Source of the DNA: Clavelina lepadiformis
Lineage: Eukaryota > Chordata > Ascidiacea > Aplousobranchia > Clavelinidae
DNA length: 64,000 bases
NCBI RefSeq assembly: GCF_947623445.1
Contig: NC_135247.1
Span: forward strand, 19,222,501 to 19,286,500
Direction of reading: 5' to 3'
Below the pieces are notes generated by a model. It saw only the letters and a program-made list of their open reading frames with translations. It made no database searches and was not told the DNA's origin. Every line of letters starts with the position of its first letter. The first letter of the stretch is position 1. This document shows, piece after piece, positions 44,069-46,011 of the stretch. Both the position numbers and the translations under genes were made by a program.

Positions 44069-46011
44069 TCACGGTGATGTCACATTAAAAGTGACGTTAT
44101 AATTGACGAGGTTGCCTCGATCCCAGGCGTAGAGCTGTTTCTCAAGGTGGTTGTAGGAGAGCATCGAGTTGTATTGGTACTTGTTCAGATAAGGAATCTG
44201 CAATTTGTGAAGTTGAAACAATTAATAAAACAAATTTAAAAACTTCCTAAGAGATGATGCGCTCACGTTAATGTGCTTGAAGGTTTTGGTGCTGGTGTCA
44301 TAAGAATAACTCAAACTAGTTTCGTATTCATTGAATTTCTTGAGCGTGTACAACACTCCACAGGCCATGAAGGCGTTCCCGCACCAATGCTTCCTCCAGT
44401 TCGTGTTCCAGGTTCCCTCGATCTACCAATCACGACAAAGTTACTGAAGTTGACAAACAGCGAACTTTTGGGCGCCAAGGGCTCGCTCCCACCAGACCTG
44501 AGTCTGCACAATGACCCACCTCGAGAGTTCCCGGGTCCAGTTTGCTGAGGACAATGTCAAGAGCGTTGTCTACGGTCGCGTAAATTACCCACAAGCCGGT
44601 TTCGTCGGCGGCAAAGTCGATGTCGGTCGAACCAGACCACTAAGAGCAATAAATCTGGTCAACGTAAAATTCGCGCAACTGAACACTAGAGGGCGAATAA
44701 CCTACTTGATAGGGAGAGACATTTTCAAATCCGGCGCCATCTAACGGCTTTTCAATTGCAACCGACTGAGTATAGAAATCATATTTCACCAACAACGAGG
44801 AATTGTGTTTGTTGAAATACAAGGAACCGTTGTACACCACGTGACCTGTCCCTGAAACAACGACAGAATGTAAAAGGTGAAAGGTCAAATTATTAAACTT
44901 TGAAAAAATAAATCGAAATCAAGAGTTGGAACTCAAGCTAAAGCTGATATAAGATGTCTATCTCAAGCGCATACATTATCCAATCAACCTGCCCACTGAT
45001 AAGGAAGCTTATACGTCACTCGTGGACGATGACGCGATAAATCTCGAAGACTGGAGTACTCTTCTATGACGTCATTCTCCCAAAAGTGGGGCAAGACCCA
45101 GATGGGTTTAGCAGAGGAAGTGGGGACCGGGTCGCGAAGCCAGGCACCGAACTTGACGTTCGACCGGACCTGAGTGACCGGAGCCCCGATGGAGAGAATT
45201 CTTCCACATCCTGCGCATGAAGACGAATTATGCGATAAGAAAGAAACAATAATGACGCATTATATGGGGACAACCTTTTGCATGTGACGTTGATTCCTGC
45301 GGGACCGGCGCAATCGGGGCTACGTAATTGGATACGTCATCCTGAATGGTGAATTCCATTATTCCTTCATAGTTCGTGGCTTTACGGATCAACTTCTGCT
45401 TCAACTGAGGAATATCAACCGCGTTAGAACGTCACAAGAAGTTGTTGCCAAGGAAACACAGAGTCGAAAACGTAATTCTCATAGACATCATGTGACACAG
45501 GTTGACGTCACCTTGTAAGAAGAGAGTTGCGCAACGATGGTCCGCGGTTTTTTCTTCTTCCTTTCGCCGATCCGATTCGCTCTCTCTACGTCATCAACTG
45601 TCAGGTGAACGTCAAGAAACTGTGCGAGTTCGACGACCTATTATGACATCACAAAAGTTAAATGCAATTGTACAGCAAAACGGGAAGGATTCGATCGAGT
45701 TTTACCTTTTCGTCGAGGTTTTCATCTTTTTTCTCCTGAACGCCTTTAATTCTGATGAAGTTCCTTCTAGAATCCTCCATAAGAGCTCGCACTGCCCCAT
45801 ATCGTCCACTGAGCTGCTTTCTAATCGACTGGTGCCGGCGAGAAATGTCGCTGACACTCGAGTTAAACACGTCATTGCTACCTTTCATTGACGTCATCTT
45901 ACGCTGAGTGGTCTGGATTGCAGCTCGCAGGTGGAGTTGCCGTACCGAGTAGATGCTCAGTTGAACCGCGTTCAACAGCAGAGCGGTGAGGACAAACACT
46001 CGAGTTTTCAT
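44069..46011 (-). CDS. Membrane-anchored olfactomedin protein with LINE-1 ORF1p-like domain
   Basis: Eight exons on the complement: 46011-45706, 45637-45512, 45404-45275, 45210-44989, 44851-44706, 44639-44520, 44416-44267, 44197-44069; 442 residues. Residues 5-21 form one hydrophobic segment after a short basic start, fitting a type II signal-anchor or a signal peptide. Residues 25-80 look coiled-coil. Residues 84-155 carry [26 protein letters not shown] and [13 protein letters not shown]. This is the order of motifs in the RRM-like and C-terminal domains of LINE-1 ORF1p. From Cys189 to the end is an olfactomedin domain: [67 protein letters not shown] and the ending [20 protein letters not shown]. 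Extracellular olfactomedin domains act in adhesion and signalling. The ORF1p-like segment is split by two introns. Its first coding base is about 208 bp from the ZCCHC4 stop. Confidence 0.87.

Follow-up and report, generated by a model that had tools for sequence, protein, structure and literature searches.

Gene structure and domain organization

The window analysed here is a stretch of 64,000 nucleotides from the genome of the ascidian Clavelina lepadiformis (contig C8, NC_135247.1, positions 19,222,501 to 19,286,500), and all coordinates refer to it unless another sequence is named. Its minus strand carries, at 46011-44069, a gene of eight exons that encodes a protein of 444 residues. The protein is composed of a hydrophobic segment, a long helix, a domain (residues 81-168) resembling the RNA recognition motif (RRM) of ORF1p, a protein of long interspersed nuclear elements (LINEs), and an olfactomedin (OLF) domain. 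Profile comparisons identify the RRM-like domain as a homologue of ORF1p that is read in frame with OLF. It probably derives from an L1-type (type II) LINE and was domesticated in the stalk of a probably membrane-anchored OLF protein, where it would act as a structural or protein-binding module without RNA binding.

The seven introns of the gene all have GT-AG borders, lengths of 64-137 bases, and phases 0, 0, 1, 1, 0, 0, and 0. After splicing, the frame contains no stop codon up to the end of OLF, which matches Pfam PF02191 with 278.6 bits. Exon 1 (45706-46011) starts with the ATG at 46011, is followed by a GT donor at 45705 that opens a phase-0 intron, and encodes the hydrophobic segment, the helical stalk, and the first strand of the RRM-like domain. 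Exon 2 (45512-45637, VVELAQ...SSYK) forms the middle of the domain, and exon 3 (45275-45404), which starts with LKQKLIRKA, its end and the linker to OLF. The domain (45333-45771) is thus spread over three exons and contains two introns. The initial annotation had located three ORF1p-like motifs in this gene, and they are found where it placed them, at the end of exon 1, in exon 2, and at the start of exon 3. The interval that it gave, 45275-46011, covers exons 1-3; the OLF domain starts outside it, in exon 4 (44989-45210, CGRILSIG...QWAG), which has phase-1 introns on both sides and contains the start of the PF02191 match at residue 192. According to the gene model, OLF continues through exons 5 (44706-44851), 6 (44520-44639), and 7 (44267-44422) and ends, followed by the stop codon, in exon 8 (44069-44197).

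A deposited Clavelina lepadiformis protein of 444 residues (P0001) matches exon 1 and is identical to the spliced product except at residue 299 in exon 5, which is D in the window and A in P0001. Since P0001 is encoded on a contig of 8.47 Mb, the difference probably reflects another assembly or haplotype. The OLF domain of P0001 is complete (residues 192-439, PF02191 positions 1-246 of 246, 283.6 bits), and its cysteine pair, Cys189 and Cys371, is invariant in an alignment of 11 rows. About 20 residues separate the RRM-like domain, which reaches to residue 168, from OLF, which begins at 189-192.

The hydrophobic segment (residues 5-23, 45943-45999) has a mean hydropathy of 1.90 over 19 residues and is read here as a membrane anchor, with a signal peptide as the other candidate. 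The stalk (residues 24-80, 45772-45942) is a candidate coiled coil with a heptad periodicity of p=0.014. The periodicity is below p=0.02 in four of the eight proteins tested (P0002, a Clavelina protein without OLF that is described below, among them), and the values range from 0.000 to 0.20, the latter in Ciona. Judged by its hydrophobic N-terminal segment and OLF domain, the protein is likely extracellular or lumenal. The segment and the sequons in OLF are compatible with a secreted protein or with a type II membrane protein whose OLF domain is extracellular, and an external position of OLF would fit both the sequons and the cysteine pair.

Homology of the domain to LINE ORF1p

Searches with the Clavelina sequence alone do not reveal the relationship. 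No Pfam family exceeds its cut-off in residues 1-187, where the best results are chance-level matches and Baculo_FP at E 0.053, and phmmer finds no ORF1p in the Protein Data Bank (PDB) at E 10. The initial annotation had suggested Pfam Transposase_22 (PF02994) as a check; this would have failed, as the matches of the protein do not include PF02994. The family is also nearly absent from Pfam results for P0002 and for P0122-P0130, nine further proteins in which an ORF1-type domain precedes OLF: the single weak match is to P0124 (E 0.071).

Profiles of several sequences recover ORF1p. A profile of Clavelina and P0002 has ORF1p in the first four rows of the PDB search (E 4.9e-4 to 2.7e-3). When nine of the ten OLF-linked domains were combined into a profile that left out P0125 and contained no ORF1p sequence, human LINE-1 ORF1p was the best match among all PDB sequences (2yko, E 1.4e-4; 2ykp; 2w7a), in agreement with the proposal that the domain should match ORF1p structures. 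ORF1p occupies four of the first five rows (E 1.4e-4 to 5.6e-3), and the fifth is a chromatin-remodelling protein matched over half of the profile.

A hidden Markov model (HMM) of 118 ORF1p-type proteins, none of them with OLF, gives 69.9 bits for Clavelina (residues 80-172) and 33.6-59.7 bits for the nine other carriers. The best of 2000 shuffled Clavelina N-termini, of which 1973 were scored, reaches 9.7 bits; 109 other OLF proteins (61 scored) remain at or below 2.0 bits, and P0131, an environmental OLF relative that lacks the domain, has 2.2. The protein of Oikopleura, absent from all queries and HMMs until it was itself tested, reaches 41.0 bits with this HMM and 28.0 bits with an HMM of the nine other OLF-linked domains. 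In profile-profile alignments by hhalign, the OLF-linked domains match 33 ORF1p-type proteins with a probability of 99.5% (E 1.4e-22) and the set of 118 with 99.7%, whereas 40 runs with shuffled columns do not exceed 3.3%. The profile of the 33 proteins finds human ORF1p at E 7e-14. These controls, together with the nine further proteins of the same order, bear out the claim of the initial annotation that an ORF1p-type domain and OLF belong to one protein.

The domain was also located directly in the DNA. Among 2867 stop-to-stop segments of at least 25 residues from six-frame translations of the whole window and of 9.9 kb at each of five other Clavelina OLF loci, the ORF1p-type HMM ranks exon 2 first (33.2 bits, E 6.7e-9) and exon 1 second (17.3 bits, E 9e-5), and the third-best segment has 5.5 bits. 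Exon 3 by itself is not found by this HMM; it is found, at 29.1 bits, by a profile of the OLF-linked domains that includes Clavelina. At the five other OLF loci, the HMMs detect no ORF1-type exons.

Two points count against the strength of this evidence. Recruitment of the ORF1p-type proteins relied on an alignment that included the query, P0002, and a bait composed from known features of the family after the query had been seen. In addition, PF02994 is matched at E 0.01 or better by only six of the 52 ORF1p-type proteins scanned, so that the label of the 118 depends on these six, on the match of the 33-protein profile, and on the names of a few members. Because of this circularity, the clean tests are the score of Oikopleura and the search of the PDB with the nine-domain profile. 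Among the relatives listed, Hydra accounts for many rows and insects, a tick, crabs, and a sea urchin for some; a few carry the names of transposon proteins.

Predicted structure

The AlphaFold model of the Clavelina protein, calculated from 11 sequences, has a mean predicted local distance difference test (pLDDT) score of 80.2 and a predicted template modelling score of 0.59. A helix of residues 2-81 directly precedes the first strand of the domain (85-89), which is followed by a helix (99-109), two strands (119-125 and 135-140), a helix (143-155), and a strand (163-166). The predicted strand-helix-strand-strand-helix-strand order is that of an RRM, and the ten-residue means of pLDDT across the domain are 69-92. 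In fold searches with the full-length model, propellers fill the best 50 rows, and therefore the neighbouring protein P0002 was folded instead. Its model, the alignment for which contained both ORF1p-type and OLF proteins, has a pLDDT of 90.3, and human ORF1p provides its first seven PDB matches.

Distribution, conservation, and age of the fusion

The initial annotation had proposed looking for the same domain order in other tunicates, and it is present in Ciona intestinalis (P0122, 440 residues), Styela clava (P0123, 450 residues), and Oikopleura dioica (P0130, 448 residues). With Clavelina and six environmental proteins (P0124-P0129), the carriers number ten. A protein search with the OLF part returned 585 proteins at E 1e-10 or better, and the domain was scored in the 120 of them that were listed. 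Among the 119 listed matches besides Clavelina, only the nine carriers exceed 10 bits with a domain HMM built from Clavelina and eight of them, Oikopleura being left out. With residues 60-187 as the query, a protein search retrieved nothing besides Clavelina; as this word-based method misses relatives, including Ciona, absence from its results was not used. Ciona olfactomedin2 (KH.C7.500), which PMC11728170 and PMC8803312 describe as expressed in the notochord, may or may not be the carrier gene and is not used here.

Between Clavelina and Ciona, 55 of 88 residues of the domain and 156 of 251 residues of OLF are identical (62% each), compared with 6 of 57 (11%) in the stalk. Towards the eight other carriers, Clavelina is identical at 24-44% of domain, 47-58% of OLF, and 9-19% of stalk positions. 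The domain, being as conserved as OLF towards Ciona, has thus been kept as a folded unit. Since other tunicates share the pairing, the capture looks old and maintained to this day. The stalk keeps at most its heptad pattern. Its identity across carriers, 5-11 of 57 residues, is too low for a test of homology. The proposal that a whole ORF1p coding unit was captured is supported for the RRM-like domain, and a coiled coil may have arrived with it.

In a midpoint-rooted tree of the domain, calculated from 71 rows and 98 columns, the ten OLF-linked domains form one group with support of 97/77, present in 98% of 200 bootstrap trees, which suggests a single capture in the tunicate stem. PMC5899321 places Oikopleura as sister to all other tunicates sampled and dates the main groups to approximately 450-350 million years. 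Since Oikopleura shares the pairing, the simplest placement of the capture is on the stem lineage of tunicates. The view that the domestication is old, expressed in the initial annotation from the DNA of one species, agrees with the pairing being common to Ciona, Styela, and Oikopleura.

Several observations complicate the single capture. Named species account for only four of the ten carriers, and the six environmental proteins are termed tunicate-like from their position among these species in the trees. In the domain tree, human ORF1p stands beside the ten domains, and the placement of three long rows (Oikopleura, human ORF1p, and P0002) is unsure. In the OLF tree the carriers cluster, with three changes needed against a mean of 8.8 after shuffling, but support is weak (71/75) and none of 200 bootstrap trees requires just one change. 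Two proteins, the environmental P0131 and P0165 from Styela clava (334 residues), fall among the carriers in that tree. Neither P0131 nor P0165 has an ORF1-type domain by HMM, and they are candidates for secondary loss. One gain with later losses of the domain is a possible history.

RNA-contact positions

Sites of the ten OLF-linked domains and the 118 ORF1p-type proteins were compared in the numbering of human ORF1p. The R220 site, which we take to have a role in RNA binding, is K or R in 116 of 118 ORF1p-type proteins and in none of the OLF proteins, which have E (six), Q (three), or T (one). At the R235 site, a basic residue is present in 81 of 117 ORF1p-type proteins and in a single carrier, Oikopleura. 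The histidine of the ER-x-HR motif is found in 100% of ORF1p-type proteins and in none of the ten, eight of which have N. The N157 site is N in 94% of the former and in one of the latter. Many other conserved positions are retained in most of the ten. R235, R261, and R206/R210/R211 are listed as required for RNA binding in PMC9839780, and a role of R235 is also given in PMC6501352. R261 belongs to the C-terminal domain of ORF1p (PMC2951350), which the Clavelina protein lacks, as OLF follows in its place after the short linker. PMC2951350 ties N157 to the folding of the RRM, and its change therefore need not concern RNA. From the residues at these sites we infer that the domain lost RNA binding.

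One alternative is continued binding by the captured domain, in the lumen or outside the cell, of nucleic acid or a different polyanion (heparan sulphate, for example), which would then be the reason for its retention. The basic residues at the R159, R215, and K227 sites in nine to ten of the ten carriers and the lysine-rich loop of Clavelina (RKKKKPR) speak for it. Against a complete loss of binding stand these basic sites, the R206 site, which is K or R in five of ten carriers and 38 of 118 ORF1p-type proteins and does not separate the sets, and the overlapping net charges of the two kinds of domains. Residues R210 and R211 lie in inserted segments of the alignment. The alternative is opposed by the lack of a C-terminal domain, by the R220 and R235 sites, basic in none and one of the ten carriers, and by the net charge of the six environmental domains, which lies between -5 and +1 in four of them (ORF1p-type mean 5.4, range -2 to 12). 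Furthermore, RNA in the cytosol would be expected to be out of reach of an anchored OLF protein. Some binding of nucleic acid or polyanions is compatible with the retained basic sites, but we regard it as unlikely to be what the domain is kept for.

Origin of the domain and proposed role

A second alternative, about equally improbable, reverses or removes the transfer: a cellular RRM-like domain could predate LINE ORF1p, or a LINE could have taken it from a host gene, and the OLF protein would not be derived from a transposon. The domain tree leaves room for this, because it is rooted only at the midpoint and has the ten domains and human ORF1p on one side of the root. It accords less well with the spread of the listed relatives from Hydra to arthropods and sea urchin, with transposon proteins named among them, and with the scores of at most 2.0 bits (2.2 for P0131) in the other OLF proteins among the 120 matches listed of 585. 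An error of the gene model, in which exons 1-3 would belong to a separate gene or to a recent LINE fragment beside an OLF gene, is very improbable, as the same order recurs in ten proteins including those of Ciona, Styela, and Oikopleura, P0001 has the same joins, the GT-AG introns are compatible in phase, and the domain is conserved like OLF towards Ciona. Convergence of a short basic motif string (ERANRIG, KPR) can practically be discarded: although Clavelina alone matches neither ORF1p in the PDB nor a Pfam family, the HMM match spans the whole domain with the correct order of secondary structure, and the shuffled sequences and profiles score far lower.

The preferred explanation thus remains the domestication of a LINE ORF1p domain in the stalk of an OLF protein. 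The donor may have been LINE-1 or another LINE with an L1-type ORF1; the direction of transfer, the topology, and the function are what we infer. The domain would have been captured once in the tunicate stem, after which the C-terminal domain of ORF1p would have been lost, with OLF in its place, and the RNA-contact positions replaced, so that the domain would no longer bind RNA. The hydrophobic N-terminal segment would anchor the protein with OLF outside the cell, and the helix and the domain together would form a folded collar, assisting trimerisation of the stalk as well as the spacing and orientation of the OLF heads. Alternatively, the domain may be a protein-binding module or docking surface outside the cell.

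L1 ORF1p is described as a trimer held by its coiled coil (PMC5940361), and tetramers of Olfm1 as disulphide-linked (PMC4463452). In Clavelina, Ciona, Styela, and Oikopleura, the first cysteine is at residue 189-192; with no cysteine before 189, their stalks cannot be disulphide-linked as in Olfm1. Given a stalk without cysteine and the coiled-coil trimer of ORF1p, the stalk and the RRM-like domain may supply a non-covalent trimer and a collar. This model has its difficulties: trimerisation is proposed by analogy only, P0127 has a cysteine within its stalk, at residue 62, and P0128 has no window of 19 residues with a hydropathy of at least 1.6, which makes a membrane anchor doubtful in that protein.

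We lean, with more reserve than for the domestication itself, towards a wider interpretation, that of a single capture of a LINE ORF1p unit in the tunicate stem, before the split of Oikopleura. The event would then rank among the oldest domestications of LINE ORF1 known from animals. It would also be the first to have brought this intracellular RNA-binding domain into an extracellular protein anchored in the membrane, with the RNA face remodelled as a trimer collar or as a receptor surface for OLF signalling.

Other ORF1-type sequences in the Clavelina genome

P0002 (LOC143468554; C8:19116283-19116873, minus strand) is a protein of 197 residues encoded in a single open frame on the same strand as the OLF-fusion gene, at a distance of 150 kb. 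It has a hydrophobic segment, a long helix, and an ORF1-type domain, and no second copy is found among the matches at E 10. A sister relationship of P0002 to the OLF-linked domains is unsupported, as it falls, as a long row, among the ORF1p-type rows. Its place there and the R that it keeps at both the R220 and R235 sites suggest a separate event.

Further fragments resemble ORF1. An open frame with NLRFLGVPES at C1:23125926-23126081 (minus strand) has a weak match to Transposase_22 (E 0.0092, below the cut-off) and is a candidate for another ORF1p-type remnant or exon. Four related ORF1-like fragments on C6, C8, and C3 (L014, L016, L017, and L018) share GRPPPPIIVKFMSRD or a nearly identical string, and no ORF1p Pfam family was found in the two that were scanned. 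In L014, a frame that by eye resembles a LINE endonuclease lies downstream of the fragment. A 12.1-bit match (E 0.013) at L057:8488-9441 was rejected, as only a weak trimer coiled-coil family is present there.

Reverse transcriptase matches, of which 150 were scored among 935 candidates, cluster at C6:12.1-12.8 Mb, C6:14.2-14.3 Mb, C9:8.9-9.6 Mb, and C4:17.0-17.4 Mb. Many score equally and lie in open frames about 1150-1190 codons long, and neighbouring matches at C6:14.2-14.3 Mb are about 7-15 kb apart. Elsewhere in the window, the minus strand has at 47236-47421 an open frame with a weak match to an N6-adenine methyltransferase (PF10237, E 0.0032, below the cut-off), and cysteine-rich open frames lie at 46220-47106.

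Comparison with known proteins

The closest known system is LINE-1 ORF1p (type II; PF02994; PDB 2yko, 2ykp, 2w7a, and 2ldy), with which the Clavelina protein shares a long helix leading straight into the RRM-like domain, a profile match over the whole of this domain, and conserved positions. It differs by the missing C-terminal domain, the non-basic R220 and R235 sites, and a gene that adds the hydrophobic N-terminal segment, OLF, and seven introns. In a LINE, endonuclease and reverse transcriptase lie downstream of ORF1p; here OLF follows in frame, and none of the 150 scored reverse transcriptase candidates (of 935) lies in the window.

Noelins (Olfm1-3), gliomedin, and myocilin have the same OLF propeller, 38-41% identical to Olfm1 structures among the matches listed, preceded by a helical stalk. 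Gliomedin has an anchored layout like that proposed for the Clavelina protein. The vertebrate noelins among the matches listed differ in carrying PF12308, and no ORF1-type domain is found in the 109 other OLF proteins, which have 2.0 bits or less. Baculovirus FP25K (PF03258) gave the weak match mentioned above (E 0.053, below the cut-off), which covers residues 85-153 in the same register; it is a viral protein that is not known to contain OLF.

Host genes made from LINE ORF1 include L1TD1 of mammals, which in 2014 was considered the sole domesticated gene known to stem almost wholly from LINE-1 (PMC4161310) and which is described as an RNA-binding protein (PMC11925450). In contrast to L1TD1, the Clavelina domain is fused to OLF and has no basic residues at the R220 and R235 sites. 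The EKA genes of powdery mildew, also derived from LINE ORF1, are fungal, and the excerpted text of PMC4641428 mentions no fusion to OLF. Among the listed matches of searches of the open-access literature, no description of a pairing of ORF1p-type and olfactomedin domains was found, and the impression of the initial annotation that no described protein combines them is not contradicted there. Domestication of transposon proteins is itself known; the new element here would be the union with an OLF protein.

Few domesticated LINE ORF1 genes have been described, and the Clavelina case is probably older than L1TD1. The domain appears to have changed sides of the membrane, and its orthologues display which features of ORF1p were kept (the fold and the helix in front of it) and which are gone (two RNA-contact sites and the C-terminal domain). 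The case is accessible to experiment in Ciona, a chordate in common laboratory use. Since Pfam can miss such domains, more of them may hide in annotated genes.
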